Shown here: one piece after another, positions 1,475-17,447 of the stretch
Layout: each line of letters starts with the position of its first letter
Position numbering within the stretch: position 1 is the stretch's first letter
IMG/VR virus record: IMGVR_UViG_3300020410_000075
Span: 1-21,496 of that record
DNA from: a virus
Strand: one strand, 5' to 3'
DNA: 21,496 nucleotides
Notes under the pieces: model-generated
Told to the model about the DNA's origin: nothing
What the model saw: only the letters and a program-made list of their open reading frames with translations
The model's database searches: none
Position numbers and translations under genes: made by a program

Positions 1475-1482
1475 ATACACAA
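1475..1482 (-). promoter_or_regulatory. TTGTGTAT motif, candidate late promoter (copy 1)
   Basis: On the minus strand TTGTGTATATCC directly follows the TAA stop of the 330-codon gene. It is one of five exact copies of the same 8-mer, all in intergenic gaps and all in the coding direction. Promoter function is inferred. Any transcript started here would meet the terminator at 1415-1447 within about 50 bases. Confidence 0.45.
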
Positions 1483-2475
1483 TTAAACGGTTTTAGCATC
1501 CGTTTTTGTAGCTCTTGGCTTTCTTTTGGTAGTTTTGGGTTTGTCTTCAGTTTCTTCTGTCGTATCTTCAGCTTTTTCGGCAGATTTCTCTTCATTTTTA
1601 GACTCGACAACAATAGGGTTGCCTTCATCATCTAAGAATGGCTTACGCTCCGCAAGAGACTTTTTAATCCATTCTTCTTCGCCATCTTCATTAGTAATGG
1701 AAATGACTTCTTCACCCTCACGATTAACGAAATATATCTCATTTTCATCCTGGTTTTTCTTACCCTCTTCGGTACGGTAGGCGATAAACTTACCTTCCTC
1801 GTTAATCAACCTGCCCTCAGAATCTACTAAATGACCATCATCATTAATAAACCTTAAGTCCTCGTTAACAAAATTGAACTCTTTAAGGAATTTATTTTCA
1901 ACTAAGTTGTTCTCGTAATCAGGATCAAGCCCATATAACATATTGGCCAATTCAGAAGAAGCCTCAATAACCCACGGTTGATCAGCTTGAGAATCGTATG
2001 TCTTTTGATCTGGGAAATATGGTTGATTAGTATCCGGATTAATCATACACACACGAACCAATTCAGCAAACCTCGCATTGTCAGCCTGCCCCTCAGCAGA
2101 GTTCTGATCTAATGCATTTCTTTCAGCGATTAAAACTTTAAAATCATCCCTTAAATCACGCAACCCAAGTGCTGTGTTCTTTGCTTCGGTTAACTTAATA
2201 CCACCGCCTTTAAGTTTGTCTTCAGCCGCATTAATATCATTAGCAAATTTCTCATATGTCTTTTGTTTTTCCTCACTCCAAATTCCCTGCTCAGTCATAT
2301 AATCATTGATTTTCTGACGCAATAGAGCACCAGAATCGAGTGCTTTCCTAAACGCTTTATTATATTCGATTTGAGAATCTCTATACTGTTCAGCTGTGGG
2401 GTTTTTGATTAAAACCTTAACAACCTTATCGTCTTTGTCTTTGCTTTCAATAATCTTTTCATTCTTGTCTACCAT
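1483..2475 (-). CDS. Conserved phage tail-region protein with six turn-like repeats, tail assembly role possible
   Basis: This 330-residue, highly charged protein lies directly before the tape measure gene, where tail assembly chaperones are usually encoded. I chose the ATG at 2475 because AAGGAG lies six bases upstream; the frame stays open farther upstream but without a ribosome site. Residues about 20-185 are helical and charged, with the phrases FRKALDSGALLRQKI and AEGQADNARFAELV, which look strongly conserved-phage in style. Residues about 209-290 hold six copies of a hydrophobic-hydrophobic-[ND]-x-[DE]-G unit (FINDDG, LVDSEG, LINEEG, FVNREG, ITNEDG, FLDDEG). The last 40 residues are Glu/Lys/Thr-rich, ending in a basic KRKPRA-containing tail. 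It overlaps the preceding gene by 17 bases. The exact function is not known to me; a chaperone role rests on position alone. Confidence 0.78.
   Translation of the reverse strand: MVDKNEKIIESKDKDDKVVKVLIKNPTAEQYRDSQIEYNKAFRKALDSGALLRQKINDYMTEQGIWSEEKQKTYEKFANDINAAEDKLKGGGIKLTEAKNTALGLRDLRDDFKVLIAERNALDQNSAEGQADNARFAELVRVCMINPDTNQPYFPDQKTYDSQADQPWVIEASSELANMLYGLDPDYENNLVENKFLKEFNFVNEDLRFINDDGHLVDSEGRLINEEGKFIAYRTEEGKKNQDENEIYFVNREGEEVISITNEDGEEEWIKKSLAERKPFLDDEGNPIVVESKNEEKSAEKAEDTTEETEDKPKTTKRKPRATKTDAKTV
1606..1851 (-). repeat. Six degenerate turn repeats within the 330-residue protein
   Basis: The segment encodes FINDDG, LVDSEG, LINEEG, FVNREG, ITNEDG and FLDDEG. The first three are spaced exactly seven residues apart. 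The pattern suggests serial beta-hairpin turns. The repeats are visible at protein level and not as near-identical DNA, so they are old or under selection for the protein pattern. Confidence 0.65.
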
Positions 2476-2836
2476 CTTCGTCTCCTTGTTCTTGAGCCAT
2501 TGGTAAGTTGATGTAATGTTTCTTACGTGTAATATCGTAATTAACAAATTCCGTTTCCAAGTTCCTTATTTGAGTATTTCCTCTATCCAGTATTTTGGCA
2601 CGAGCTTCTTCATAAATCTCATGAATTTTCTTTTGTTCTGGGGTTCTCTCTTCTTCCAGAATGTCAAAACCCCACAAAAACCCAAACTGTTCCTCTAAGG
2701 TTGATAAAGCACCAATCATAGTAGTTTGAATTTTCTTTTTAGAAGCCTTGAAAAGCTTATCCCTAGAAATATCCTTGTATCTTTCTTCTCTTGCTTGTTT
2801 TAAATCAAGCGACTTTTGTAAAAAATTGTTATCCAT
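2459..2836 (-). CDS. Small conserved tail-region protein, unknown function
   Basis: This 125-residue charged protein lies between two other genes in the chaperone position upstream of the tape measure. It opens with helical, Lys/Arg-rich sequence, has a central phrase IGALSTLEEQFGFLWGF, and continues with helical sequence containing EEARAKILDRGNTQIRNLE. No enzymatic motif or membrane segment is visible. Its ATG directly abuts the TAA of the upstream gene in the same frame (TAAATG), and GGGGGAGG supplies the ribosome site. It overlaps the next gene by 17 bases, so translation is probably coupled across all three. I do not recognise a named family; tail assembly is the likeliest context. Confidence 0.75.
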   Translation of the reverse strand: MDNNFLQKSLDLKQAREERYKDISRDKLFKASKKKIQTTMIGALSTLEEQFGFLWGFDILEEERTPEQKKIHEIYEEARAKILDRGNTQIRNLETEFVNYDITRKKHYINLPMAQEQGDEDGRQE

Positions 2837-3889
2837 TTACCTCCCCCTCATTTTTTGTAATCCTTCTTGTCTACCTTGTATTGCCATGTCTTGTTTTATA
2901 TCATGTAACTGCCTAAAATCTAAACCGCCAGTCGTATCTCTAACTTGGTCAATTTGGTTACTCCGACTCTTAATAGTGGATCTCGCAAGAGGATCGTTTA
3001 AGTCATATATTTGATTTGCGGCCTCTTGATTGGAGGCCATTACAAATACCTCTTGTGAATTCGCGATTTTCGAATTCTTAGTGAGTGCATCTACCTCTTG
3101 TTGTTTTTTCTGTTTTTCTATCTTTCTTTTTTGCTCTATAAACCAACCATCTAAACAGACATCATCATCGATTATCTTCTCGTTTGGCCTCTCCGGACTC
3201 TCATAAACATTGTCGTACATCATAGAGTACGAACATAAACTAATTTGGTTAGGTGTAAAATCTATAGAAGATTTTCCAAATATATCACCAGTAGTCTTAG
3301 CAATAGCCCATTGAGATCTCCAAGGCTCATTACGGGCTATCATCCTGAATTCTTCAGACGTTATTGATTTGCTATTTAAAATTCCCATTACCTCATACAC
3401 GCTACAATTTCTCCAGTCGTATTTAGATCCATCTCGACGATATGTGCAATTTTCCACAATCCAAGCAGATCTTGTAAATTCCGCCGCCCCCCTACAAGAA
3501 ACATGATCTAATGATTTATTCCTTGATACTATATCCATTCTTTGACGCTCGGCTAACTTTAATCGCATCTTTATTAGACTTAGTTTCTGGGGATCAAAAA
3601 ACGATTTATAGGCATCCAGTTTTAACTCTTCGATCTTTTTGTCCAGTTTCTTAATTTCCTTATCATCTGCTGGATTCCAGAGATGAAGATCGTATAATAG
3701 TTCTCGTAATTCCTGGTCTACGAAAACATTACTGTAATAAGCTTTAGAATAAGCCTCATCATATATTTCGTATGACTCCTCAAGCACATCGCTCGTTGGT
3801 TCATACACGTATAGAATAAGGTCGCCCAGCTTTATGCGTAAGCGACCTTTTATTATTCTATATAAGATTTTCTCATAATAAATATCCAT
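2837..3889 (-). CDS. Tail-region protein in the tail assembly chaperone position
   Basis: This is a 350-residue protein immediately downstream of the tail tube gene. The N-terminus (about 1-60) is mixed and Tyr-rich; residues about 60-130 are Lys/Glu/Leu-rich and probably helical. A middle section contains several cysteines (VSCRGAAEFTRS, ENCTYR, RNCSVYEVMGIL). A conserved-looking acidic phrase DDDVCLDGWFIEQKRK precedes a Lys/Gln-rich helix, and the last 80 residues are polar. The start at 3889 has a TAGGA ribosome site about eight bases upstream. Position between tail tube and tape measure is the best evidence for an assembly chaperone role. I saw no convincing slippery heptamer joining it to the next gene. 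The specific function stays open. Confidence 0.72.
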   Translation of the reverse strand: MDIYYEKILYRIIKGRLRIKLGDLILYVYEPTSDVLEESYEIYDEAYSKAYYSNVFVDQELRELLYDLHLWNPADDKEIKKLDKKIEELKLDAYKSFFDPQKLSLIKMRLKLAERQRMDIVSRNKSLDHVSCRGAAEFTRSAWIVENCTYRRDGSKYDWRNCSVYEVMGILNSKSITSEEFRMIARNEPWRSQWAIAKTTGDIFGKSSIDFTPNQISLCSYSMMYDNVYESPERPNEKIIDDDVCLDGWFIEQKRKIEKQKKQQEVDALTKNSKIANSQEVFVMASNQEAANQIYDLNDPLARSTIKSRSNQIDQVRDTTGGLDFRQLHDIKQDMAIQGRQEGLQKMRGR

Positions 3890-3964
3890 CCATTTTTCCT
3901 AATTATATCCACTCGCCCAAGTCCTAAATTATTGAGGCTATCGCAGATACTTGATTAAATCTTA

Positions 3965-4990
3965 TTAATCGGAACCACCGTGTACAGTTAATACATTAAA
4001 GTTACTGAATGAATAACTAACAGTAGCATTGCCACCACCAGTGTCACCACCAGAGTAAGACACAGAAGATAACTTATTCTTATCTCCGAGATTAATAACA
4101 GTACCAGCAGTATCCTTGATGACAATTTCTCTGTTGCCAAGGTTTTCAGCATTACCAGAAACACTTACTAAATCACCAGAAGTAGCAATTACTTCAAATT
4201 CAGAAGTTACTTCAACCGGGAATGTGGCATATCGGTGATATGGACCAAATCGACCGAGTTCCTGGATGTTTTCCTGACCAAAGTCAGTACTAACAGAGAT
4301 ACTCTGAATGTGAAGACCTCGACCAAGACCGGTCTGATCATTGCTTTCCAGTTGTGTAATTTCTACAGGAAGTGTAGAACCTTCTATGTCTACATCAGCC
4401 CTACGAACAACACCAGATTTTGGAGTATCTGATCCACCAATACCACCACCACCTGTTGGATTGGATGTGCCCCAGGCAGTTATGGCATCTTCGTCAGACT
4501 CAATTACGCCAGCTGTTAGGTCATTCCAGAACCTGTCATTACCGACCAATGTTACTGATTCCGTAGCACTACCATCTACTGTGTAGTTATAGGCAACAGA
4601 ACTAATAAACATACCCGAGTTGTAACACACGTTTCGTGGAACACCAGTAGCGTGAGATACACCATCATCAAAGATAGCAACATACACATCACTACGAGAC
4701 TTGGTGGCTGCTACCACGTCAGTTTTACAAGTCCCACGACTAGCATGGTCATAAATTAATTTATAACCATCGATAACTTTTTCAATGGTTACTTCAATAT
4801 CGGCAACCTGCTCAATGTTCTCATAAATTTCAATCTGACCCAGTTCGAAAACTTGATCAAGAGTAAATGTAGAACTCATGCCCACACTTTGCACACCGTG
4901 AACCACATCATTATTACCAACAGTAGCGGCACCTCTGGCTGTGATTGCGACAGCTTGGCAAGCATAGAAAATACGTTGATTACGAGCCAT
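3965..4990 (-). CDS. Major tail tube protein
   Basis: This 341-residue protein is the likely subunit of the tail tube, which stacks as rings around the tape measure. It starts MARNQRIFYACQAVAI and has the tube-like phrases FELGQIEIYENIEQVADIEV and KVIDGYKLIYDHA, consistent with a beta-rich tube fold in which a ring-forming hairpin follows the first strand. A Gly-rich linker, NPTGGGGIGGSDTP at about 177-190, separates two halves, so the C-terminal part may be a second beta domain on the tube exterior. The ATG follows GATAGGAGATTAAA, a good ribosome site. Its position before the chaperone-like genes and tape measure agrees. No sheath gene is found near it, which argues for a non-contractile tail. 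Confidence 0.82.
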   Translation of the reverse strand: MARNQRIFYACQAVAITARGAATVGNNDVVHGVQSVGMSSTFTLDQVFELGQIEIYENIEQVADIEVTIEKVIDGYKLIYDHASRGTCKTDVVAATKSRSDVYVAIFDDGVSHATGVPRNVCYNSGMFISSVAYNYTVDGSATESVTLVGNDRFWNDLTAGVIESDEDAITAWGTSNPTGGGGIGGSDTPKSGVVRRADVDIEGSTLPVEITQLESNDQTGLGRGLHIQSISVSTDFGQENIQELGRFGPYHRYATFPVEVTSEFEVIATSGDLVSVSGNAENLGNREIVIKDTAGTVINLGDKNKLSSVSYSGGDTGGGNATVSYSFSNFNVLTVHGGSD

Positions 4991-4998
4991 TTTAATCT

Positions 4999-5012
4999 CC
5001 TATCTAAATAGG
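4999..5012 (-). promoter_or_regulatory. Small hairpin overlapping the tail tube ribosome site
   Basis: On the minus strand CCTAT-TTAG-ATAGG forms a perfect 5-bp stem with a 4-base loop. Its 3' arm includes the first part of the AGGAG Shine-Dalgarno site of the tail tube gene. It could modulate initiation or be chance; five AT-rich pairs are weak. Confidence 0.35.
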
Positions 5013-5042
5013 TTAAAAATCCTCTGGTAAAGGCATTTTTAT

Positions 5043-5050
5043 ATACACAA
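5043..5050 (-). promoter_or_regulatory. TTGTGTAT motif, candidate late promoter (copy 2)
   Basis: On the minus strand TTTTTTTTGTGTATATAAAAA lies just after the TAG stop of the 319-codon gene and about 53 bases before the tail tube start. The tail tube is one of the most abundant virion proteins, so a dedicated promoter here makes sense. Function is inferred from recurrence. Confidence 0.5.
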
Positions 5051-5058
5051 AAAAAACT

Positions 5059-6018
5059 CTAAATGGCTTTTACTTGGGTAGAACAGCTTGTTGTACCCAT
5101 ATATAATTCGGGAGATAATTGTGTAATTTCTGCACCTTTGGAGGAATTAATCCAGCATCTACGATAAAAGAAATTGTCTATCATATTGGGATACATGCCG
5201 CTGGGAATAGCATTTTCGTTTAATTCATTTCGATAATTGAACGGTAAAACACCAGAAATAGCCACTGCCGTGGGGTCAAATAGGTGAATAGTTCTATCAT
5301 TTTGGTAGAGAATTGTATCCATTAAGTTAGCACATTCCCAGTGATTTTCACTCATCACATAGAATACAATTTCATTATTAACCCACTGACCACCACCAAG
5401 CTGATAACCTTCTAACGACCTCGCTGGAACAACCTCAATAGCTACAGCTGGAAGTTGAATTCTTGTTTGACCCAACTGAGCCCAACCCCCAGATCCAGTA
5501 ACTTGAAAATTGTCCTCGGTTCTAAATGATCTACTTTGAAGTTGTCTAAACCAAGGAACACCTTCCGCAGGAACAACCTCTACCCATTTATGACTGTACT
5601 CTAACTGTACAGTACTAGTTGTTGTTTGGGCAGTATCAAAAACAACTTTACCATTAGGATAATCAACATAAAATGGTTTTGTTACATTGCCAGTAGCATA
5701 GAATGTTCCATCTACAAAAACACCAGAAATCGCAGTGGGTTGAGTAGTAGTAGCACTTATCCCAGTTTCCCAGACCCAGTTTTTTCTATAACCCTCCCAC
5801 ACTTGACCATCAGTATAATTAGGATCATCGACAGACCTTAGGATATGCCTAGAACCACCATAGATGCCTGATTGTGGAATTTTGATATTATAAAAGGATC
5901 CCCGATCTAAGAGCCCCCAATCATAAAAAGATATAAAATTATCGAGCAAGATATTAGAAATTGTAACATCTTGAGCATTACTTAGATTAGATAATTGTGT
6001 GTGTGGTCCACCGGCCAT
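5059..6018 (-). CDS. Virion structural protein of the neck/tail junction, unassigned
   Basis: This 319-residue protein lies between a neck-type gene and the tail tube gene. It begins MAGGPHTQLSNLSNAQDV, contains many aromatic residues, and looks beta-rich. Phrases such as DPNYTDGQVWEGYRKNWVWE and FYVDYPNGKVVFDT are soluble-structural in style. No transmembrane segment or enzymatic motif is seen. Its start overlaps the preceding stop by one base (TAATG), which couples it to the 204-codon gene. The position suits a head-tail completion or tail terminator protein, yet it is larger than typical tail terminators. I do not recognise the family with certainty. Confidence 0.75.
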   Translation of the reverse strand: MAGGPHTQLSNLSNAQDVTISNILLDNFISFYDWGLLDRGSFYNIKIPQSGIYGGSRHILRSVDDPNYTDGQVWEGYRKNWVWETGISATTTQPTAISGVFVDGTFYATGNVTKPFYVDYPNGKVVFDTAQTTTSTVQLEYSHKWVEVVPAEGVPWFRQLQSRSFRTEDNFQVTGSGGWAQLGQTRIQLPAVAIEVVPARSLEGYQLGGGQWVNNEIVFYVMSENHWECANLMDTILYQNDRTIHLFDPTAVAISGVLPFNYRNELNENAIPSGMYPNMIDNFFYRRCWINSSKGAEITQLSPELYMGTTSCSTQVKAI

Positions 6019-6632
6019 TATTGAAGAGCCTTTATAATTATGTTTCGTATTTGTGGTAAAATTGGGTTTATAGCCCTAGTGATAAAATTGTTATCTATAG
6101 TGCCCGCGTACTGACTATTTACCTTAAATGCGGCGACACCTTCGACCATACGCCCCCCGCCTGTACGTCCATAAGAACCATACTCAACCCCAAAATCAGC
6201 GATAATGACCTGTTGCCCCAAAGTTAGCAACCATTCAAGCCACGGTAAAACCTCTCCCTTTTCAGTAATCTGTGTAGCTGTGGATAATGAAAATAAATTA
6301 GAATAATCAGCGGGTTGCAAAGTAATTAGAACACCACCCTTAATGCCAGAAGATGATGCAACGGCTTTGCGTGCCTGTACTGATAAACTATTTGTGACAG
6401 CATTAACGATATCCGCAGACGGATCTTGTGTTAATCCAAAATCAATACGCAGAGTACCCGAAGACAATGATCGGATTTCCGAACTAGACAACAAAGCCGC
6501 AGAAACCAATGGTCTAATCTGTTCCTCTATAGACCTTGCCTTTTTTGATACAATTTTATTAAATATACTAGCCAAACCCTTGTTGATCTTTAGGGCAATA
6601 GCACGAGCGGATTCTGTCAGGTTTATAGGCAT
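6018..6632 (-). CDS. Neck or tail-completion-like protein
   Basis: The product has 204 residues. An N-terminal helical segment (LTESARAIALKINKGLASIFNKIV) is followed by a mixed alpha/beta domain with the phrases GTLRIDFGLTQD, GGVLITLQPADYSNL and LEWLLTLGQQVIIADFGV. A Gly-rich loop YGRTGGGRMVEG then leads to a C-terminal helix. The alpha/beta layout and its place after the connector genes fit an HK97 gp10-like neck or tail completion factor, by analogy only. The start directly follows the stop of the zinc-knuckle gene (TAAATG) and its stop overlaps the next start, so it belongs to a translationally coupled string. Confidence 0.62.
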   Translation of the reverse strand: MPINLTESARAIALKINKGLASIFNKIVSKKARSIEEQIRPLVSAALLSSSEIRSLSSGTLRIDFGLTQDPSADIVNAVTNSLSVQARKAVASSSGIKGGVLITLQPADYSNLFSLSTATQITEKGEVLPWLEWLLTLGQQVIIADFGVEYGSYGRTGGGRMVEGVAAFKVNSQYAGTIDNNFITRAINPILPQIRNIIIKALQ

Positions 6633-7145
6633 TTAACCGTCAATCCTATTCCAAAAAGTGACCACGTATTTGATGAGATTGTCTTTAAATCCCTGAGGAT
6701 AAGACGATCCATTTTTCGTGTATCTCATCTCATCATATTTCTCAATACCATCATATTTTGGTATCATATACTTAGATTTATTAATCTTGTCCATGTCGGT
6801 CATAAGAGCAATAGTTTGAATAGCACCGTCTGGGATGTCTATCGCGGGTCCTATATCTGCCCAAGACTTTCGATCCCAGTAAATTCGTAAAACAATATCT
6901 TCTGTGGTTTCTGTTGCTCTGTACCCCTTGCCTTCACAATAGGGGCACGGCATACCGCGATCAAATGGAAAAGGTCCACCCGGACGATATACGCTAATAG
7001 ATCTATTTCTTGTGCCCATAGTATCCATATAGCAATTTGCACACCGCTCACGTTTTTCTGGATAAACCAAAGTAGCGGTGCGTGTGAATAAATCTAAAGC
7101 ACTGTTGTATATATCGAAGACGGAATTAGGTATCGTGATAGCCAT
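6633..7145 (-). CDS. Head-tail joining protein with a zinc-knuckle-like four-cysteine site
   Basis: The 170-residue product has an N-terminal helix, then C35-A-N-C38 and, about 30 residues later, C67-P-Y-C70-E-G-K-G. The second pair looks like one DnaJ-type CxxCxGxG unit, so the four cysteines probably bind one zinc ion. Between them lies a Pro/Gly-rich segment, YRPGGPFPFDRG. The remaining 90 residues include a beta-rich stretch (EDIVLRIYWDRKSW), and conserved-looking acidic turns. The place between adaptor-like and neck-like genes suggests a head closure or connector role. The start has AAGGGGG five bases upstream. The zinc site is read from the sequence; the role is inferred from order. Confidence 0.7.
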   Translation of the reverse strand: MAITIPNSVFDIYNSALDLFTRTATLVYPEKRERCANCYMDTMGTRNRSISVYRPGGPFPFDRGMPCPYCEGKGYRATETTEDIVLRIYWDRKSWADIGPAIDIPDGAIQTIALMTDMDKINKSKYMIPKYDGIEKYDEMRYTKNGSSYPQGFKDNLIKYVVTFWNRIDG

Positions 7146-7160
7146 AAAAACCCCCTTATG

Positions 7161-7424
7161 TTATGATGGACCCCCGTAAGAACCACTTCCATGATAATAG
7201 TTAGTGTCATCAAACCGCTCGCTAAACCTATCATCTAAATCAGATATTGAGATATCAAGATTAGAAGCCGACTTTGGTCCAGCGGGAGCTAACCTATTGT
7301 TACTGGATAACTCTGTAATCAGTGTGCCAGAAGCACCTAACCCATTAGCACCAGCCACAGCCACTATAGAATTACCAGCATTGGGCTGGGATTCAGTATT
7401 AATTATTTTAACAGAAACTGGCAT
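7161..7424 (-). CDS. Small virion-associated module protein, homologous to the C-terminus of the 614-residue fibre-like protein
   Basis: The product has 87 residues. Residues 17-45 match the tail of the 614-residue protein closely: both contain GLGASGTLITE, and 21 of 29 positions agree by my count. The last 23 residues also match (LDDRF..RFDDTNYYHGSGSY against LDSRF..RMDETSYYAGSGAY). The short N-terminus MPVSVKIINTESQPN is unique. No membrane or enzymatic signature is present. The AGGAG ribosome site is clear. It sits between two head-tail joining genes, only 12 bases after the adaptor-like gene. The likeliest idea is a small virion component whose fold serves as an attachment or capping module, also appended to the large fibre-like protein. 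This is a real gene by conservation; its function is unknown. Confidence 0.72.
   Translation of the reverse strand: MPVSVKIINTESQPNAGNSIVAVAGANGLGASGTLITELSSNNRLAPAGPKSASNLDISISDLDDRFSERFDDTNYYHGSGSYGGPS
7164..7382 (-). repeat. Duplicated coding module, copy in the 87-codon gene
   Basis: This stretch and 8020-8238 encode the same protein module. Some DNA similarity also remains around the shared GLGASGTLITE phrase, so the two copies derive from an intragenomic duplication or from recombination between related phages. Confidence 0.75.
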
Positions 7425-7435
7425 TTATTTATCTC

Positions 7436-7945
7436 CTAGTCAAAGATGTTACCACGATAATCGAACTGATTAGCATTGAGAATCATACTACCAGGACTAT
7501 AAGGCCCAAGGATGGCTTGACCAATCGGGGTATCGTTATTTCTATTGTATTGATATTCTTTAAGTAGAGCATCGTATTTCGAACATATGTCGTTATAGAG
7601 AGTTGTTAAACTCCCGGCCACTCCTCTAAGGTCTATCGAAGACGGACCATCTTTAATTGCCACAGCATTTCCTGCATTAGTCTTAACCTCACTACCCAAC
7701 AAGATACATGCAGATTTGTATACCGTTAGAGTTGTAAAGTCTACGTCATTTTCGGAAATTGGATCTGGAGAAATTGATATGGCTGCTACATTCACAGTGT
7801 ATTCGGTGCTGAAGATAGCATCGTTAAGCACATTGTAGGCACCCACAACTAATATTTGCTTAAGTCTTTCGTCGGTGAAACTCGTACTGTCTAAATCACC
7901 TATGATAGATCTTAACATTAATACTAAATCTATATTCCAAGGCAT
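7436..7945 (-). CDS. Head-tail adaptor (connector)-like protein
   Basis: This 169-residue protein follows the fibre-like genes and opens the head-tail joining set. I chose the ATG at 7945 (MPWNIDLV) because AGGTGGG lies seven bases upstream; an upstream GTG at 7957 would add four residues. The sequence is mainly helical: LMLRSIIGDLDSTSFTDERL, ILVVGAYNVLNDAI and a later helical stretch ending with KYDALLKEYQYN. The opening helices followed by a D..FTDERL turn resemble gp6/gp15-like adaptor proteins that bind under the portal. The C-terminus (TPIGQAILGPYSPGSMIL) is extended, as expected for an arm that contacts neighbours. Assignment rests on helix pattern and gene order. Confidence 0.62.
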   Translation of the reverse strand: MPWNIDLVLMLRSIIGDLDSTSFTDERLKQILVVGAYNVLNDAIFSTEYTVNVAAISISPDPISENDVDFTTLTVYKSACILLGSEVKTNAGNAVAIKDGPSSIDLRGVAGSLTTLYNDICSKYDALLKEYQYNRNNDTPIGQAILGPYSPGSMILNANQFDYRGNIFD

Positions 7946-7989
7946 AAATTTACCCACCTATTAGGAGAAAAGGAAACCCTCTACTAATA

Positions 7990-7997
7990 ATACACAT
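7990..7997 (-). promoter_or_regulatory. Variant ATGTGTAT motif, weak candidate promoter
   Basis: The minus strand reads TTTTATGTGTATTATTAG in the 71-base gap upstream of the adaptor-like gene, one mismatch from the TTGTGTAT motif. The same variant also occurs inside genes, so this copy alone is weak evidence. Confidence 0.25.
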
Positions 7998-8016
7998 AAA
8001 ACCTAAATAATGAAGA

Positions 8017-9861: not shown

Positions 9862-10223
9862 TATGCAATCCCTAATGCTGTGTTAAATTCTGACCGTGTA
9901 CAATAATCCAACTCTGCTCTCATTAAAATTTGGGATATGTCATTTCGAATAACACCCTTAGCTATTTGAGTTGCTGAGTCTGAGTCCACACCAGTAGTAA
10001 TTAACGAGGTTGCTAAATTAGTAATATTTGTACCAATTTGTGTTTTCACTTTTGCAAATTCAGCTTGTTCACCAGCATCTAAATTGAATCTATCAATCAC
10101 ACCCGCATCTGTCTGTTCACCAGCCAAAATTTCAGTAAAACTTGTAATGGTGGGCCAAATTGGAAGCTTCACCACCTCTTGACCATTATCACCATACCCT
10201 CTAAATCGATCATATAAAGCCAT
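9861..10223 (-). CDS. Small virion-region protein, unknown function
   Basis: This 120-residue protein lies between the Ig-like gene and the large fibre-like gene. The first 45 residues are polar and aromatic (MALYDRFRGYGDNGQEVVKL, then LPIWPTITSFTEIL). The remainder is helical, with VKTQIGTNITNLATSLI and DISQILMRAELDYCT. There is no signal peptide or membrane segment. AAGGGG provides a ribosome site, and the stop overlaps the next start. Genes of this size next to fibres can encode assembly factors or attachment proteins, but nothing in the sequence decides between these. Confidence 0.68.
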   Translation of the reverse strand: MALYDRFRGYGDNGQEVVKLPIWPTITSFTEILAGEQTDAGVIDRFNLDAGEQAEFAKVKTQIGTNITNLATSLITTGVDSDSATQIAKGVIRNDISQILMRAELDYCTRSEFNTALGIA

Positions 10224-10244
10224 CGTATTTTCCCCTTTTAAATA

Positions 10245-10571
10245 TTATAGATTTTCGTATACTCTAAAAGTACCGACATCGGACCTAAATGTACCACCAC
10301 CCATTACTACTTTTGCTTGAATTCTCCAAGTGCCAACCTCGTTAAAATCACCATCTACCGATGTGTATTTAATTTTACCATCAGTACCATCTGTATTGAA
10401 AGAAGCGGTTTTAGTAGTTGATGTTCCAGACGGAGACTGTAATATAAGCTCTAATGTACTGGCCGCAGACACATTAAGAACGGTAGCTGTGCCAGACACA
10501 CAATCTTTTATAGTTACTAAGATAACAGTACCTATATCGTTATAATGGACTTCTTCTTCTGTACAAGCCAT
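10245..10571 (-). CDS. Small Ig-like beta-sandwich virion protein (BppU N-terminal-like)
   Basis: The product has 108 residues. After a short acidic start it shows the order expected of a small beta-sandwich found in phage tail and baseplate proteins: YNDIGTVILVTIKD, then ASTLELILQSPSGT, a short TDGTDGKIKYTS hairpin, and VGTWRIQAKVVMGGGTF followed by VGTFRVYENL. The segment from DG to GTWRIQA is typical of the BppU N-terminal-like class. It is probably an accessory virion protein, perhaps a fibre adaptor, given the flanking fibre-like genes. It begins three bases after the 51-codon gene with GAGAGG as ribosome site. The fold class is moderately sure; the exact role is not. Confidence 0.68.
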   Translation of the reverse strand: MACTEEEVHYNDIGTVILVTIKDCVSGTATVLNVSAASTLELILQSPSGTSTTKTASFNTDGTDGKIKYTSVDGDFNEVGTWRIQAKVVMGGGTFRSDVGTFRVYENL

Positions 10572-10574
10572 AAT

Positions 10575-10730
10575 CTACCTCTCTACTGTAAATTCTAATT
10601 GACGATTCACTTCTAATGTATCATCAAGCTGTCTGTTTATAGTCAAAATAGTGTCTATTTGCCTCTGAATTCCTAAACTAATTTCTAATTTTGTATTCTG
10701 GTTTAATGTAATATTTACTGTCTCTGCCAT
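10575..10730 (-). CDS. 51-residue decapeptide-repeat protein
   Basis: This small gene fills what would otherwise be a 167-base gap. It starts at ATG 10730 (MAETVNITLNQNTKLEISLG) with AGGG nine bases upstream, and ends with TAG three bases before the next start. Residues 21-50 form three exact-length 10-residue units: IQRQIDTILT, INRQLDDTLE and VNRQLEFTVE, all fitting [IV]-[QN]-R-Q-[IL]-[DE]. The regular amphipathic pattern suggests an oligomerising helix. The C-terminus of the upstream 429-residue protein, MELSLRLQRAMEIDL, resembles residues 15-29 here (LEISLGIQRQIDTIL). No other function can be inferred. The tight fit between neighbours and the repeat pattern support it as real. Confidence 0.68.
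   Translation of the reverse strand: MAETVNITLNQNTKLEISLGIQRQIDTILTINRQLDDTLEVNRQLEFTVER
10581..10670 (-). repeat. Three tandem 30-base coding repeats (decapeptide units)
   Basis: The three units encode [IV]-[QN]-R-Q-[IL]-[DE]-x-[IT]-[LV]-[TE]. DNA sequences of the units have diverged while the protein pattern is kept, which points to selection on the peptide. Confidence 0.72.
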
Positions 10731-10738
10731 AATATGCC

Positions 10739-12028
10739 CTATCTAAAAAGATCTATTTCCATTGCTCTTTGAAGGCGAAGTGATAATTCCATACCTATCT
10801 CTTCAGGTATCACTGGTGTTGGTGCATCGCCCAACAATAACCACGCATGTTCTCTTTCTAAACCGTCAACACCAGTCCATGTTTCTCTTATCCCCGTACC
10901 TGTTCCAGACACAGATGCCGATCCCGTAACAGCTTGTGAATGATTATAATATCGAATAGCATGGGTATCACTAACATAACGATCACAATTCGAAGTAGAT
11001 ACACCATCTTGATCTAACCATCCGCCTACTAAATTGTTATTGTTTTCATCCCAAACTCCTACCATAAATTTAGCATGATCTGTTACGGTTTGTGAAGACA
11101 CCCTAGCCGCAGAAATACAAATCCCAGCCTTGGGTGTAAATCCAGCCTCAACATCATTAGTAGAATTACTAGTTGGTTGAGTGGAAAATGCGACCTTGAC
11201 TTTTGGTCCCTTCATAGCAATAATAGTCACTTTCTTGGCTGTGCTGTCAACTGCAGAAAAATTCAATGTATACCCATCAAACTCCATGCTTTTAACAGTT
11301 GCCGCATTAAGTGTTGACTTTGTGTCAAGATCATACATCCGTATAAAATCTGAACATAAGACACCAGCAGTGTCTGATGCGGAAGACAACTTACCCCTTG
11401 ACGAAATCACGGAAACGGCATCCGTTGTTCCATCAGAAAAACCCATAGCAGAAACAGCATGTCTACTGCTGTCTTCTAAAGTATTCGGTGTCATAGTATA
11501 TAAACATATCAACAAATCAGGATTAAAACCCAAGCCAGTATAACTAATATCTCCAACGGAAGTGGGAGTTTCAATTGTCTGAATTTTAATGTCTTTAATA
11601 CCTGAACCACCAAGAACTAAAGAACCATAAGAGAAACCATCAAGAGATGATTCTGACCATGTGTGACCCAACGCTGTTGAAGAATAAGAACTTTGAACCG
11701 CACGCTCGTAAGTAGCTTTATTTCCAAATATGGCAGTCGCACTATGCGTATCAGAGTGTCTACGGGCCGTAATAGTGCTAGGAACCCCATTAAAAGCACC
11801 CAAGCCTATACTGTGATCCAAGGTGTCAGTAGCCCAACCAATGGAATTCCTCATGTCTGCTGTTATTTGAGCAGATGTGCCAACATTGGTAAATGCCAAA
11901 AGCATATGGTTACTTGGGGCATAATCTCCCCAATAAGAACTAGTCAATGCTTCGTTTTGAGTAATTGAAGAGGTGGGTGCTGTGAAGGATATTACCTCAG
12001 CTAATATATCTGTTGATATAGCGGTCAT
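10739..12028 (-). CDS. Three-repeat fibre-like surface protein
   Basis: The product has 429 residues. Its body consists of three tandem units beginning near YAPSNHMLLAF (about 36), GFNPDLLICLY (about 167) and GFTPKAGICIS (about 296). Each unit continues with a Gly-rich strand (IGLGAFNG, AMGFSDG, MVGVWDENN) and ends with a hydrophobic strand (YGSLVLGG, VTIIAMKG, HAWLLLGD). This repeating beta-sandwich plan is shared with the 614-residue protein, its paralogue. The last 27 residues form a helical tail resembling the 51-residue neighbour. It is the first gene after the terminator that closes the capsid block and has GGGGGA as ribosome site. A capsid- or neck-attached fibre or decoration that contacts the host surface is likely but inferred. 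Confidence 0.73.
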   Translation of the reverse strand: MTAISTDILAEVISFTAPTSSITQNEALTSSYWGDYAPSNHMLLAFTNVGTSAQITADMRNSIGWATDTLDHSIGLGAFNGVPSTITARRHSDTHSATAIFGNKATYERAVQSSYSSTALGHTWSESSLDGFSYGSLVLGGSGIKDIKIQTIETPTSVGDISYTGLGFNPDLLICLYTMTPNTLEDSSRHAVSAMGFSDGTTDAVSVISSRGKLSSASDTAGVLCSDFIRMYDLDTKSTLNAATVKSMEFDGYTLNFSAVDSTAKKVTIIAMKGPKVKVAFSTQPTSNSTNDVEAGFTPKAGICISAARVSSQTVTDHAKFMVGVWDENNNNLVGGWLDQDGVSTSNCDRYVSDTHAIRYYNHSQAVTGSASVSGTGTGIRETWTGVDGLEREHAWLLLGDAPTPVIPEEIGMELSLRLQRAMEIDLFR

Positions 12029-12074
12029 AAAATCCCCCGCAATCTTATGTCAGAGCGACACACACCATAATATT

Positions 12075-12082
12075 ATACACAA
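12075..12082 (-). promoter_or_regulatory. TTGTGTAT motif, candidate late promoter (copy 3)
   Basis: TTGTGTATAATATTATGG on the minus strand begins just a few bases after the U-tract of the capsid-gene terminator and lies about 47 bases before the 429-codon gene. A terminator followed at once by a start signal is a natural transcription-unit boundary, the best context among the five copies. Confidence 0.55.
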
Positions 12083-12086
12083 TAAT

Positions 12087-12116
12087 AAAAAAGCCGCCCC
12101 ATTTAGAAGCGGCTTT
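12087..12116 (-). terminator. Intrinsic terminator after the major capsid gene
   Basis: On the minus strand AAAGCCGC, an 11-base loop and GCGGCTTT form a perfect 8-bp, GC-rich stem followed by a short T-rich tract (TTTTTATTATT). It ends the packaging and capsid transcription unit. Confidence 0.87.
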
Positions 12117-12138
12117 ATCCCCGGAAACTGGTCTATTC

Positions 12139-13143
12139 TTAGAAAGAGCCAGCCAGAACACGTCGGTTGTCAAGAACACCAAAGCCAATTTCGGCAGTGC
12201 CGTAATAACCTTGTCGTTGATGACGATGCAGAGCTTCGTCTTCGAAGATTTCAACTTCCTGCTTAACAGGCATAACAAAACTATCGTTTGCAGCCTGATC
12301 CAGACCGATAACTAATTCAACATCGCTAGAAGCGAGCGAACCACCAAGATCGCTGGTAAAGTAGGTTTGATATTCCTGACCATCACCAAACTCAAAGATA
12401 TCGTGCAGGTTAACACCAAACACTCGCGTGATTGCCGGACCATCATCAGTAGCGGTGTAGATTTCTCGTCGAGAAACTTCATCCAACTGATCAACGCCCC
12501 AGTTACGAATATCTTCAATTGCTTCTGGTGAGCAGTAGAGGTCTGTCAAACGACCTGGAGCAGTAACAGAGTTACCACCACCGTTACGTCGCATAACAGT
12601 CTTCAAGAGACTAACCAGACGCTTGGTAAACTGACCAGCAGCAGCATCAGCATCGTAGACCAAGATATTACGGTCTACAGCAGCAGCCAAAAGTGTGTGC
12701 CAGCCATCATCGTTAATCTTCTTAACGAATGAAGACTCCAACACCTGCATAGCACGAGAAACAATGTTCCAGTTAGCACTACGAGCATACTTCAGCAAGA
12801 AATCAATCGAGCTGGAGATACCATAGGTATTAACCATCACATAGTCACCCTCAACATGTCGCTCAGGAATCCGACCATTGCCAGGATTTGTATAGGCAAC
12901 ATGATCAGTTTCTGTGCCGGGAGCCAACAAGTCCAGAGGAAATTCTGGAGATGCGGCGGGTTCTAAAGGCATCGCTTCATAGATAGATGTTACAACATCA
13001 CCAAAAAGCACTCCCTTACGAATAGGAACTTCCAACGCCTTAGCAATTTCCCGTTGAGCAGTAAATGCAACTGCTCGGTCGGAACTGCCGGATCGTCGGA
13101 GCAGTTCAATAAATTCATCAGTAGGTCTGTTTTTACTAGCCAT
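12139..13143 (-). CDS. Major capsid protein (HK97 fold)
   Basis: This 334-residue protein is the expected head subunit: right size for HK97-type capsid proteins without a fused delta domain, and placed after portal, protease/scaffold and decoration-like genes. The N-terminal part is helical (EFIELLRRSGSSDRAVAFTAQREIA). It continues with an extended arm, VPIRKGVLFGDVVTSIYEA, and then a mixed alpha/beta region with YGISSSIDFLLKYARSANWN and a helical stretch VSRAMQVLESSFVKKIND. The LVSLLKTVMRR-to-LTDLYCSPEAIEDIR section fits an A-domain helix and strand. The strong AAAGGAG ribosome site and the following terminator suit a highly expressed gene. It may be cleaved little at the N-terminus, since the scaffold is separate. 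Confidence 0.85.
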   Translation of the reverse strand: MASKNRPTDEFIELLRRSGSSDRAVAFTAQREIAKALEVPIRKGVLFGDVVTSIYEAMPLEPAASPEFPLDLLAPGTETDHVAYTNPGNGRIPERHVEGDYVMVNTYGISSSIDFLLKYARSANWNIVSRAMQVLESSFVKKINDDGWHTLLAAAVDRNILVYDADAAAGQFTKRLVSLLKTVMRRNGGGNSVTAPGRLTDLYCSPEAIEDIRNWGVDQLDEVSRREIYTATDDGPAITRVFGVNLHDIFEFGDGQEYQTYFTSDLGGSLASSDVELVIGLDQAANDSFVMPVKQEVEIFEDEALHRHQRQGYYGTAEIGFGVLDNRRVLAGSF

Positions 13144-13185
13144 TATAAATTTCTCCTTTGAGGTTCAGTTAGTTAAGATACTAGG

Positions 13186-13698
13186 CTATTCAGCGATCTG
13201 GCCGCCAGAAGGTCGAGCAGTATTCGGAAGATCAATATACACTTTGGCATATCCATCTTCGTCTTTCGTGCCCAAGAATCGACCAACAACCTTGGCACTA
13301 CCGGTATGGTCACTATTGTCAGTACCCACCCAGCTAGCAGCAATGTTGCCACTATGAGCCAGATACGCAAGAGCACCAGCGGTTGGTGTGCCAATGATGT
13401 CGTCAGTTACAACAGTACCCTTTTGAAGCAGGGTAACCTTTCCACCCTTTTGGACTTCATCCTTGTGCTGGTTAAGGTGCTGACGAGTCAGGTCAATATT
13501 GACCATATCATTCAACAACAGACCAACAGGAATCTTTCCAGAAGGTTCGGCAGCATAAGTAACCAAGGCAGCACCTTGATCCATAGCTGAACCTGATCCA
13601 GCAGTGCTAACACATGCGATACCACCGCGTGTAGCAGTTTCATTCATAAAGAACGAAATGTCAGTTTGAAGCGTACTTCTATCAGTTTTAAGAGCCAT
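13186..13698 (-). CDS. Head decoration or capsid-stabilising protein
   Basis: The product has 170 residues and is encoded between scaffold and major capsid protein, the usual place for head decoration proteins. It begins MALKTDRSTLQTDISFFMNE and becomes beta-rich, with VGLLLNDMVNIDLTRQHLN, EVQKGGKVTLLQKGTVVT and a stretch AGALAYLAHSGNIAASW. It closes with VGRFLGTKDEDGYAKVYIDL, a pattern in keeping with small beta-barrel cement proteins. The ATG follows a perfect AAAGGAG. Gene order plus sequence style give moderate confidence. It could alternatively be a minor head protein. Confidence 0.7.
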   Translation of the reverse strand: MALKTDRSTLQTDISFFMNETATRGGIACVSTAGSGSAMDQGAALVTYAAEPSGKIPVGLLLNDMVNIDLTRQHLNQHKDEVQKGGKVTLLQKGTVVTDDIIGTPTAGALAYLAHSGNIAASWVGTDNSDHTGSAKVVGRFLGTKDEDGYAKVYIDLPNTARPSGGQIAE

Positions 13699-13728
13699 TA
13701 TCGAATCTCCTTTGTGAGTTTAAATTAA

Positions 13729-14430
13729 TTACTTTTCGTCTTTCGGGACGTGTTGTAAAACAGAACCAAGCCATTCACTGGCCTGTGCCCGCAGAGATTC
13801 GGCTGGATCATCTTCACCAACAGCCTCTGCGATAGCCACTTCTTCAGTTTCTTCGACTGACTCAAGATCAGCTTCTGAAGCTTCTGAAGTTTCTACCTCT
13901 TCTTCTAAAACAGTTTCATCTGCTTTAGCATCATCTTTTTTATCCGCTGTTTTCTTCATAGGAACTGCGGCTTCTTCTTCTTCTTTCATAGCCTTTTCTG
14001 GCTTAACTCTAGCCAAGGTTGTAAGAACCTTAGCAAAAGTGTCGTTATCTACATCTTCAAAAGATGCAAGAGTAGACTCTACAGCTTCTGCTTCAAGACC
14101 AGCATCCTCAAGTGCAGTCTTGCGTTCCATTCTAGCTTCCTTCTTCTTCATTTCTCGCAGTTCTTTCATCTTGTCTTCCATATCTTTTTCGCCGTGCTTA
14201 ATTGCTTCAGCTTGTTCAGCAATTTTAGCTTCGGCTTCTGAGATCTGGGTTTCGAAACCAGAAATCTGCTCATCTTTTTCAGCAAGAGTTGCTTCAAAAG
14301 TAGCGATTTTGGCATCGAATTCGGCTTGCTGCTCAGCAGCAACCTTTTCTTGCAATGCATCATTAGCAGCTTTAGCTTCTGCTAATTCAGCTCGCAGATC
14401 ATCGATCTGCTTTTCATAACTGTCAGACAT
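13729..14430 (-). CDS. Scaffold protein translated from an internal start (nested gene)
   Basis: An in-frame ATG at 14430 (MSDSYEKQIDDLRAEL) opens a 233-residue product identical to the last 233 residues of the protease gene. A perfect AAAGGAG at 14437-14443 lies six bases upstream, as strong as the sites of the two capsid genes. The product is a long coiled coil rich in Ala, Glu, Lys and Gln (about 1-125), then a highly acidic region, and a short closing helix (SEWLGSVLQHV) of the kind scaffolds use to bind the capsid protein. The arrangement parallels the lambda C/Nu3 pair: one frame giving few protease-scaffold and many scaffold molecules. Confidence 0.8.
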   Translation of the reverse strand: MSDSYEKQIDDLRAELAEAKAANDALQEKVAAEQQAEFDAKIATFEATLAEKDEQISGFETQISEAEAKIAEQAEAIKHGEKDMEDKMKELREMKKKEARMERKTALEDAGLEAEAVESTLASFEDVDNDTFAKVLTTLARVKPEKAMKEEEEAAVPMKKTADKKDDAKADETVLEEEVETSEASEADLESVEETEEVAIAEAVGEDDPAESLRAQASEWLGSVLQHVPKDEK

Positions 14431-15228
14431 CTTAATCTCCTTTATAGAGGATATTGTTAATGTTTTGTCTTTTGTAAAAGAAATATTTTCACCACCATAA
14501 GATCCGGTCCTATCTAGTATAACACTATTAGGATTAGCAGGTTTTGAAACTAAGCCTTTACCAGAGAACGATAAGTTTCTTAATAATCTGCCAACTCTAT
14601 AGTTGTCGTATTCACCAGTGCCGCCATAAGCCCGTAAGTGCTTGGTTAAAAACGCAGAAGCCTCGTCACGGGTAACGACCTCGGTCTGACCATCCTCTCT
14701 CGCAAGAGCATAGTCAAAATCAGGGAATAAACATTCCATAGACACAAACCATTTACCTTCTTCTATCTCAGCAACAATTTTTCTCATTCGTTCTCGCTGA
14801 GAAGGATCGCTCCATTCCGTATAAACAACCGCTGTAGTTAAAATGTTAAATGTGCCTGGAAGAGATTCGTCCGACACAATTTCATTTCCCTCTACATCAA
14901 CCACTGTATTACCAGTGATATGACCTATAATATCTCGCTCATCATGCATAAAGTTAAAAGGCTTGTCTTCAGGGGTATCCCTAGCATCCCACAGTTCCTG
15001 CGGATGGAACACATCATCATTCTTATTCCAACCGGCAGTAACCAAAATCGATCTTAGGTAGTATAAGTCAATTTGATCCTTGTTCTCAGCAATTATTTTT
15101 TCTAATGCCGAAGACTTAATATTAATTTCCGGTGTAAAAGATTCCGCAACGATGTCCCAAGCGAGGGTATTATTCGTTAATACCTGGTCGCGTAAACCAT
15201 CGTCTATTTCTGATTGATATATCTTCAT
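13729..15228 (-). CDS. Prohead protease fused in frame to the capsid scaffold
   Basis: This 499-residue protein starts at ATG 15228 (MKIYQSEIDDG), six bases after GGAGG. A TTG at 15255 is in frame but has no ribosome site. Residues 1 to about 250 form the protease domain. Likely catalytic candidates are H95 in FNFMHDERD, H103 in IIGHITG and S163 in WFVSMECLF; these are assigned by comparison with His/Ser prohead proteases of the herpesvirus-like class. The phrase SGKGLVSKPANPNSVIL near the domain end is typical for the family. Residues 267-499 are scaffold: a long Ala/Glu/Lys coiled coil (about 270-390) and an acidic C-terminus. The protease probably cuts the scaffold and itself during maturation. 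Residue roles are inferred. Confidence 0.85.
   Translation of the reverse strand: MKIYQSEIDDGLRDQVLTNNTLAWDIVAESFTPEINIKSSALEKIIAENKDQIDLYYLRSILVTAGWNKNDDVFHPQELWDARDTPEDKPFNFMHDERDIIGHITGNTVVDVEGNEIVSDESLPGTFNILTTAVVYTEWSDPSQRERMRKIVAEIEEGKWFVSMECLFPDFDYALAREDGQTEVVTRDEASAFLTKHLRAYGGTGEYDNYRVGRLLRNLSFSGKGLVSKPANPNSVILDRTGSYGGENISFTKDKTLTISSIKEIKMSDSYEKQIDDLRAELAEAKAANDALQEKVAAEQQAEFDAKIATFEATLAEKDEQISGFETQISEAEAKIAEQAEAIKHGEKDMEDKMKELREMKKKEARMERKTALEDAGLEAEAVESTLASFEDVDNDTFAKVLTTLARVKPEKAMKEEEEAAVPMKKTADKKDDAKADETVLEEEVETSEASEADLESVEETEEVAIAEAVGEDDPAESLRAQASEWLGSVLQHVPKDEK
14437..14443 (-). promoter_or_regulatory. Internal ribosome-binding site for the scaffold
   Basis: AAAGGAG on the minus strand, six bases before ATG 14430, inside the protease reading frame. 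A coding stretch this similar to a perfect site, exactly at the domain border, is unlikely by chance. Confidence 0.85.
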
Positions 15229-15247
15229 GTAAAACCTCCAGATCGTA

Positions 15248-15255
15248 ATACACAA
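15248..15255 (-). promoter_or_regulatory. TTGTGTAT motif, candidate late promoter (copy 4)
   Basis: TTTTTGTGTATTACG on the minus strand lies in the 47-base gap between portal and protease, about 20 bases before the protease start. With initiation a few bases downstream the leader would be very short but would still include the GGAGG site. Confidence 0.45.
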
Positions 15256-15275
15256 AAAGTTTTATATATTGGAAT

Positions 15276-17387
15276 TTATTGGTTTAAATTGGGGTCAACA
15301 GCTACGACAGAAGCGTTGATATACTTCATCTCAGATGAATTAGGTAATCTATTGTTATGGGATTTAAATGATTCAATCTCATCTTCAATAGCATTTTTAA
15401 AGGCAAGAGAAGGACGAGACCCAGAATCAACTAATTCCTTCACTAATTCGGGAGTGATTTCCATAAATGGTTTAATACCCGACAATATACAAAGCTTTAA
15501 GTAGTCTACTTGAGACATTTCTGCCTTACTCAAGCTCCGCATATTCTTTTTATCAAAGTGGGCTAATGCAATAGGAGACAATATTTCAGATATTTGATCT
15601 TGAGCAGATACGGCCCATAATACAGCAGCTGTTGGAGTACCTGATTTAGGTAATACTCTTTTCCGCTTTCTCTTCGTTGAATCTTTAGAGAAGTCTGGGC
15701 GACCAACTGGATTAATAGGTCGCTCTTTATCTTCTTCATCTTTGTCTTTATTATTAGGAGATGGGGGTGGTGCCACTGGCTCTTCTGGTTTTTCCGACAC
15801 AGGAATACCCATATCATCAAGATATTCATCAGCTAATATATCTTTAGTTAAAGCGATTTTAGCAATATCTTCACGATGTTGTGGGTTATGATAAGGACTC
15901 GCCTTATCGGGTATAACATCATCTCTTCTATCTTTTTCTTCTCTTCTTACTCTAACTTTTTCCATACTGGGCATTTCCTTGAATCTTTCCAATAGAGTCT
16001 CGTTAGAAATAATATCACGGTCCGCCAATTGAATAAGCAAATTCTTTTCAGCGGCTTCATCAGAAAGAACAATAGAATCGAAATGTATTTCAGCGGGATA
16101 CCTAAAACCCATAGCTTTTCTAACTAATTCAATCTCATGCCTCCAGAACTGCTTTAATACATCGCGACCATATTCCAGTCTCTCAATCAACGTCTTTAAA
16201 GAAACATAATTATTCGTATACCCGCCACTACTACTGGCACCAGTTAAAGTAGGAGGAATACCTAGTCCAGCATATATACTGGTCAATACTGGTTGATACT
16301 TTTCAGTGCCTAAGAATTTGTATACCTGTGATTGACTCTCTGTGAATTTGAGTTCTGGACCCCATACCAAATCCATAGTACCACCACCAACATTGCTGGC
16401 CAAGATATCTCTCAGCTTATTAATAGCAGCTTTAGTGGGGATAATCTTATGCTCCAGATCACCCACGGTCCATAATCGAACATTAGAAATAGCACCATCC
16501 AGAGCCGCTAAGTCAGCAAGCTTCATCTTTTCAAGCATTATAATATCATCCAAGATCGCATGAATCATTGGATTGGCCCATAACAACCAGTCATCCTTTT
16601 TGTAGTAATAGAATGCTACATCGTCAGGACTTAGGGGAACTTTTCGATCTCCCTCATGCAGTCTTTTCTGTAGATCATTAGGCAATGTCTTGAATACTGT
16701 TCGATTTTTGGTCGAACTCTTTACTAATGACTCATAAGTCATTTTAGACATATTTAAAACAAATTCAGGTTTGCCAACAACCTGACTACCATAATCTTGA
16801 ATATCTACCGCTAAGGGATTTAAGAAATCATAAGTCCAAGGGACTTCTCTTTTATTTACTTTAATGTTTTGGATTACAATATCTTGCCCAGCAGTTTTTC
16901 GTAACTCTTTTTCTTTCTGGGGATTTAATTTAGCGTTTCTTCTCTTTACTACAACATTGCCACAACGATACAAATAATTCAAGAACCTTTCAGATCTATC
17001 AGTGCCATTAACCTGTAAGAACCACTTACGATAAAACTTCTCAACATTCTTGTTTGGATGAACAATTGTTAAACCCTGAGCAGCAAAGTCACTCATCAAG
17101 TCGATAACATTTCGAACAATACCAACTCTATCATAAGCCTGCATACACATCTTCATAATGCGTTTTTGATAATTAGAAACAGATTCGCCAGGTCTAAACT
17201 GGTCATAATCTTCTCGGAGAAATCCCGTTCTAACAGAGCGGTTTGGCTCAATATCAATATAGCTTGTTCTGCGACCATAAGCTACAGCCTTTTGAATGCC
17301 GTCATAAGCTTCGACATTATCCGATGTAGCAGCATATGCTTGTTCTTTTTGTGAATCGCTATCCCATGTTTTGTATAAATCAGACAT
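15276..17387 (-). CDS. Portal protein with extended C-terminus
   Basis: This 703-residue protein forms the head vertex channel and docks the terminase. I chose ATG 17387 (MSDLYKTWDSD) because GGAGA lies about ten bases upstream; an in-frame ATG at 17414 lacks a ribosome site. The portal core covers about residues 60-480: MCMQAYDRVGIVRNVIDLMSD, a CGNVVVKRR strand, AVDIQDYG, and VPLSPDDVAFYYYKKDDWLLW. It also holds the stem/crown-type segment with IYAGLGIPPTLTGASSSGG, a phrase common in portals. Beyond about residue 490 there is a Pro/Glu/Asp/Lys linker, a basic KRKRKR at 572-577 and a further roughly 120-residue helical domain. The length exceeds the usual 400-550 residues. Its place between terminase and protease agrees. 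Confidence 0.88.
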   Translation of the reverse strand: MSDLYKTWDSDSQKEQAYAATSDNVEAYDGIQKAVAYGRRTSYIDIEPNRSVRTGFLREDYDQFRPGESVSNYQKRIMKMCMQAYDRVGIVRNVIDLMSDFAAQGLTIVHPNKNVEKFYRKWFLQVNGTDRSERFLNYLYRCGNVVVKRRNAKLNPQKEKELRKTAGQDIVIQNIKVNKREVPWTYDFLNPLAVDIQDYGSQVVGKPEFVLNMSKMTYESLVKSSTKNRTVFKTLPNDLQKRLHEGDRKVPLSPDDVAFYYYKKDDWLLWANPMIHAILDDIIMLEKMKLADLAALDGAISNVRLWTVGDLEHKIIPTKAAINKLRDILASNVGGGTMDLVWGPELKFTESQSQVYKFLGTEKYQPVLTSIYAGLGIPPTLTGASSSGGYTNNYVSLKTLIERLEYGRDVLKQFWRHEIELVRKAMGFRYPAEIHFDSIVLSDEAAEKNLLIQLADRDIISNETLLERFKEMPSMEKVRVRREEKDRRDDVIPDKASPYHNPQHREDIAKIALTKDILADEYLDDMGIPVSEKPEEPVAPPPSPNNKDKDEEDKERPINPVGRPDFSKDSTKRKRKRVLPKSGTPTAAVLWAVSAQDQISEILSPIALAHFDKKNMRSLSKAEMSQVDYLKLCILSGIKPFMEITPELVKELVDSGSRPSLAFKNAIEDEIESFKSHNNRLPNSSEMKYINASVVAVDPNLNQ

Positions 17388-17416
17388 TTGTATTCGTCTC
17401 CAGGGTAATGGCATTG

Positions 17417-17429
17417 GTAATAGTATTAC
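17417..17429. repeat. Short palindrome in the terminase-portal gap
   Basis: GTAATAGTATTAC is a 13-base inverted repeat with 5-base arms. It lies between the candidate promoter and the portal start. It is AT-rich and short and could be a weak operator, a processing site or chance. Confidence 0.3.
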
Positions 17430-17439
17430 TAATTAGACT

Positions 17440-17447
17440 ATACACAA
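17440..17447 (-). promoter_or_regulatory. TTGTGTAT motif, candidate late promoter (copy 5)
   Basis: TTGTGTATAGTC directly follows the TAA of the large terminase and lies about 52 bases upstream of the portal start, so it could separate packaging-motor expression from head gene expression. Confidence 0.48.

Follow-up and report, generated by a model that had tools for sequence, protein, structure and literature searches.

The question raised by this stretch of DNA is whether an eight-base word, TTGTGTAT, that recurs between the genes of an uncultured virus marks the starts of its late transcription and, if so, which factor reads it. The window, i.e. the whole stretch analysed (21,496 bases), comprises an entire viral record, probably a fragment of something larger, and its DNA had no near match among 50,697 phage records, leaving it with no cultured relatives at the DNA level.

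Motif copies and gene order in the window

A scan of both strands confirmed five exact copies of TTGTGTAT at the positions listed by the sequence-only reading, all of them on the coding (minus) strand, with no copy on the plus strand. This number compares with 0.88 copies expected, and none of 100 shuffles reached five. All five copies are intergenic, with gaps accounting for about 4% of the window, slightly more than the roughly 3% first estimated. The relevant features, in the direction of transcription, are as follows.

17448-19430, minus strand: terminase large subunit gene (PF03237 and PHROG terminase matches)
17440-17447, minus strand: TTGTGTAT, putative promoter element of the portal gene, immediately following the stop codon of terminase
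15276-17387, minus strand: portal gene, named by position, no family match; the ATG at 17387 is taken as the start
15248-15255, minus strand: TTGTGTAT before the protease/scaffold gene, ending 19 nt before the ATG
13729-15228, minus strand: protease/scaffold gene, named by position, no informative family match
12139-13143, minus strand: major capsid protein gene (weak PHROG major head protein match; phage G major head protein, E=1e-3)
12090-12116, minus strand: intrinsic terminator where the capsid gene ends, immediately upstream of the motif
12075-12082, minus strand: TTGTGTAT after the capsid gene and before a gene for a 429-aa protein, 7 nt downstream of the terminator stem
10739-12028, minus strand: the gene for the 429-aa protein, downstream of the motif at 12075
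7990-7997, minus strand: ATGTGTAT, a sixth copy with one mismatch, in the gap 7958-8016 before the gene at 7436-7957
5043-5050, minus strand: TTGTGTAT before the tail-tube-like gene
3965-4990, minus strand: tail-tube-like gene (PHROG virion structural protein match; name given by position)
1475-1482, minus strand: TTGTGTAT before the tape-measure gene, beginning right after the stop codon of the preceding gene
1415-1446, minus strand: hairpin GGGGAAC-9nt-GTTCCCC with a run of nine T after it, read from the sequence and lying between motif and tape-measure gene
1-1398, minus strand: start of the tape-measure gene, assigned from its translation and running off the window

Two longest-ORF calls apparently overlap motif copies, namely a TTG-start form of the protease gene (13729-15255) and a spurious ORF of 61 aa (1446-1631). 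The protease gene likely starts at the ATG at 15228, which has a Shine-Dalgarno sequence, and this start places the copy at 15248-15255 upstream of the gene and not inside it. Matches to sigma-70-like promoters in the window were no more numerous than in shuffled sequences.

Conservation and distribution in related phages

Scanning the terminase of the window against viral contigs returned 420 related stretches, of which 80 loci were kept; the group is presumably marine, judging from the nature of such metagenome collections. On the terminase strand of these loci the motif was counted 142 times, versus 11 times on the other strand. When conservation was counted over lineages less than 90% identical to each other, the terminase-portal gap held the exact motif in 41 of 55 diverged lineages (48 with variants included), the protease leader in 29 of 42 (38 with variants) and the post-capsid gap in 25 of 28, with all 28 carrying either the exact motif or a variant. 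The tail-tube leader carried the motif or a variant in 9 of 11 lineages, the other two resembling false paralogues. Lineages missing the motif at these four orthologous gaps mostly have GTGTGTAT or CTGTGTAT instead, or appear to be false paralogues, and the reverse orientation was never found in the four gaps of the diverged lineages. In the gap after the terminase gene, the 8-mer is kept while its flanks drift, with occasional replacement by TTGTGTAA, TTGTGTAC, TTGCGTAT or GTGTGTAT. At the tape-measure site the motif stands in the same place in the relatives G007, G009 and G011, and as TTGTGTAA in G001.

An unbiased test was performed on 11 non-redundant related genomes or fragments, the window included (769 kb), with genes called by a simple script and all 8-mers ranked by how enriched they are in the gap before each gene, taken to at most 120 bases. 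The top 8-mer was TTGTGTAT, with 46 of its 80 copies there (binomial 2e-63), and Shine-Dalgarno words ranked below it and its shifted forms. Since the relatives share ancestry, such p-values are too small and overstate independence; the rank does not depend on them. Overall, 54 of the 80 copies lie in gaps, which make up 7% of the sequence, while 150 permuted 8-mers of the same letters had on average 5 of 59 copies in gaps, the two high ones among them being shifted forms of the motif. The one-mismatch form ATGTGTAT is itself enriched upstream of genes in the relatives. The claim that exact copies are restricted to gaps thus holds for the window but not genome-wide, as the remaining 26 of 80 copies are intragenic (9 on the coding strand and 17 antisense). 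An abundance of intragenic copies had been named as evidence against a promoter, and these 26 are not above chance (Markov expectation of 47 in all). Total copies of the 8-mer in control phages, irrespective of location, were 8 in T4, 2 in phiEco32, 1 in 7-11 and 3 in part of MaeS. A search of the literature for TTGTGTAT as a promoter returned nothing relevant among the matches listed. Kept before particle-building genes in dozens of related uncultured phages, the word is, as judged from these comparisons, very probably a late start signal.

Host-type promoters are distributed differently. About 16 perfect TTGACA/TATAAT promoters were located in gaps of G001, opposite to the late-gene strand, and none in the late module, which holds four of the five gap copies of TTGTGTAT; in G007, every mapped TTGACA/TATAAT promoter falls between 26.8 and 76 kb, again opposite to the late-gene strand. 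Only these two genomes have many perfect host-type promoters, and G008 and G009 have too few sigma-70 matches for the early/late division to be tested. Early genes are thus apparently served by host sigma-70 promoters, clearly mapped in G001 and G007, and late expression of the late-module genes is presumed from their structural role. In G001 (136166-136849) and G008 (17132-17809) the late motif precedes genes that by eye resemble secreted trypsin-like proteases, and G001 carries a second gene that looks tail-tube-like by eye (86287-87699, minus strand), distant from the late module.

Form, spacing and leaders of the element

Constraint is seen at TTG(T/C)GTAT and at the next base, A or T. In the window the base after the motif is A or T, as originally noticed, and at 56 sites in relatives it is A in 39, T in 14, G in three and C in none. 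The T-rich sequence reported upstream is also present, but it is weak, with 0.2-0.36 bits at positions -4 to -1. No -35 element was found, as upstream columns carry at most 0.30 bit once the four main gene classes are removed and are therefore uninformative, and the combination of TTGACA and TATAAT 16-18 nt apart is not present at the motif sites.

Spacing is most constant at the protease gene, where the end of the motif lies 18-33 nt from the start codon in the 42 lineages and 7-11 nt from the Shine-Dalgarno sequence in all of them. If the word is a promoter element, RNA must then start within about 10 nt of it, which is the geometry of a -10 element, and the protease sites would be compatible with a -10-type position only. 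At the post-capsid sites an intrinsic terminator, with its stem ending 4-23 nt before the motif, is found in 26 of 28 lineages; a terminator with the motif immediately after it argues for re-initiation and against a signal acting at the RNA level.

Both findings bear on what kind of signal the word is. A processing or translation signal in the leader RNA would fit the location of the motif in leaders and its tight distance from the Shine-Dalgarno sequence of the protease gene, but over all sites the start codon follows at anything from about 15 to 97 nt, and transcripts from upstream would mostly end at the post-capsid terminator before reaching the motif, which makes such a role very unlikely. 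It is likewise highly improbable that the word is the extended -10 of host sigma-70 promoters: its T-G and TATA letters and the prevalence of A in the next position recall that element, yet its TG is shifted by one base from the expected register, T is no commoner than background at the final -10 position (20 of 56 sites), the -35 is missing, and perfect TTGACA/TATAAT promoters are used elsewhere in the same genomes.

The leaders between motif and gene have features of their own. A hairpin whose sequence changes but whose place is constant separates the motif from the tape-measure gene in the window, G001, G007, G011, G012 and G013, with folding z-scores of -1.3 to -4.5. In the window it is terminator-like, which is a point against a simple promoter at this site; ending in nine T, it is possibly an attenuator, and attenuation of a gene of which little product is required is only a guess. 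The portal leader, which spans the distance from the motif to the portal Shine-Dalgarno sequence, contains AATAnnATT-like units every 12 nt in the window (17388-17439, minus strand) and in 30 other lineages. In these 31 diverged leaders, ATT pairs 12 apart number 33 against 1.5 expected, and pairs 24 apart 18 against 1.2. The repeats could be a protein-binding site, and no common RNA fold was predicted for the portal leaders.

A candidate sigma factor and its alternatives

A protein with sigma-70 region 2 (PF04542 above the cut-off) was encoded in six of six records and then in seven of seven of a second set, and upstream of the terminase gene in more than 40 loci. One such protein, hereafter sigma A, consists of 170-180 amino acid residues (173 in G001, encoded at 5978-6499) and is present a few kilobases upstream of terminase in every relative whose contig extends far enough; all loci collected contain 180 copies in 45 clusters. 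The window ends before the expected gene, and its closest relative, L006, carries the neighbouring gene at its edge. Region 2 was matched in all 23 aligned members and region 4 in none of the 23. The AlphaFold model (mean pLDDT 76) shows the helices of region 2 and a C-terminal part that is helical as well; among PDB sequences, the sigma A profile matches region 2 of sigma-E and SigW, and a PDB fold search with the model gave weak matches to sigma region 2, none with E<0.001. No homologue was detected among cultured phages in the phage collection. Of 65 lineages, 42 lack the motif upstream of the sigma A operon; the other 23 have it there, exact or as a variant (TTGTGTAT or TTGCGTAT in 14 of them), which suggests self-activation in part of the group.

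We consider it probable that TTGTGTAT(A/T) is a single -10-type late promoter element read by sigma A together with the host RNA polymerase. According to this proposal, host RNA polymerase would carry the small phage-encoded sigma A, the resulting holoenzyme would open the DNA at TTGTGTAT(A/T), and RNA would begin a few bases downstream, giving late starts at the portal, protease, post-capsid, tail-tube and tape-measure operons; early genes would use ordinary host sigma-70 promoters. The rank of the motif, its conservation at orthologous sites, the -10 geometry, the terminators and the separation from host-type promoters all argue for the late promoter proposed by the sequence-only reading. 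From these computed patterns we infer the promoter role, the late activity and the choice of sigma A over a second sigma factor as the reader; what links sigma A to the motif is their co-occurrence.

The main rival keeps the late promoter and assigns its reading to that second factor, sigma B, or to a host alternative sigma. Sigma B, a protein of about 159 aa that has both region 2 and region 4, is encoded in the four largest records, G001, G007, G008 and G009, and a gene beside it carries the motif. However, its region 4 is clear and would predict a -35 element, of which none is observed, so sigma B is the less likely reader; moreover, sigma A lies upstream of the late module in the far-reaching relatives, with the motif before its own operon in a third of the lineages. 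On this balance the rival appears unlikely. The gene adjoining sigma B (in G001 sigma B lies at 94946-95425, minus strand) encodes a protein of 223-235 aa and has TTGTGTAT or TTGCGTAT with a long leader before it, also in G007, G008 and G009. A phage RNA polymerase had been suggested as a reader alongside a phage-encoded sigma-like factor, and it is the sigma that recurs in every far-reaching relative. Phages with a single-subunit RNA polymerase typically have short conserved late promoters, but these are about 20 bp long, as compared with 8-9 constrained bases here, and the four large records gave no PF00940 match in a search run without a positive control; a promoter of this type is extremely improbable.

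Reading by sigma A can be compared with the late system of T4. The T4 late promoter consensus is TATAAATA, and TTGTGTAT agrees with it by eye at one of eight positions. The T4-type sliding clamp (PF02916) was absent from G001, G007, G008 and G009, while the T4 positive control was matched, and sigma A does not have the hydrophobic clamp-binding tail of gp55, to which its profile gives a weak partial match over region 2. T4 late promoters are 8 bp long without a -35 element and depend on gp55, gp33 and the sliding clamp gp45 (PMC2988020). Both systems thus share an 8-bp element without a -35, a small sigma in which region 2 but not region 4 can be recognised, and late structural genes as targets; given its different motif and the absence of any match to a T4-type clamp, the present system is not a member of the T4 type.

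Another close comparison is with phiEco32 (Kuravirus) and Salmonella phage 7-11, in which an ECF-like phage sigma uses the short promoter TAATGTATA, a consensus that shares seven of nine positions with TTGTGTATA (PMC4331800). Common to both would be a phage sigma that redirects the host polymerase to a short element before structural genes, a role that is predicted here. The sigma A profile matched phiEco32 gp36 weakly and in region 2 only, and tblastn with sigma A against the phage collection, phiEco32 included, gave no match. Unlike phiEco32 and 7-11, the sites here are spread over many late operons, in records of up to 148 kb. The system may accordingly be filed under a known general kind, in which a phage sigma comes with a short late promoter of its own. 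It is possible, though we hold this tentatively, that in this widely sampled group a minimal sigma has lost the domain that reads the -35, does without a T4-type clamp and reads an 8-9-base late promoter, in some lineages also activating its own operon.

For a large phage group known from metagenomes alone, represented by the 420 terminase-related stretches, these results provide a testable code for late promoters together with a probable reader, and the motif permits late operons to be mapped from sequence alone. The small sigma would be a natural example of how region 2 can recognise a promoter when neither a recognisable region 4 nor a T4-type clamp is present.

Covariation of motif and sigma was also considered. 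The most diverged sigma A copies (L241 and L246, with LKRKVYYR in place of FKRDNYYR) still accompany TTGTGTAT, so no natural switch of motif and sigma is seen. In about 12 lineages (e.g., L121, L128 and L148), the sigma A operon shows a fixed WTGTGTAT-N17-(C/T)ATAAT layout shortly before the Shine-Dalgarno sequence; its TATAAT lies too near the Shine-Dalgarno sequence to be an ordinary -10. A 265-aa protein encoded near sigma A, mostly right after it (6483-7280 in G001), for which no cultured phage homologues were found, was considered as a gp33-like co-activator but is assigned no role, its matches being weak and mixed, with the HK97 small terminase among them and a weak resemblance to PHROG 'D5-like' regulators and small terminases. 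It is very well conserved, with 86% mean column identity, and its model combines a helix-turn-helix with a long coiled coil.
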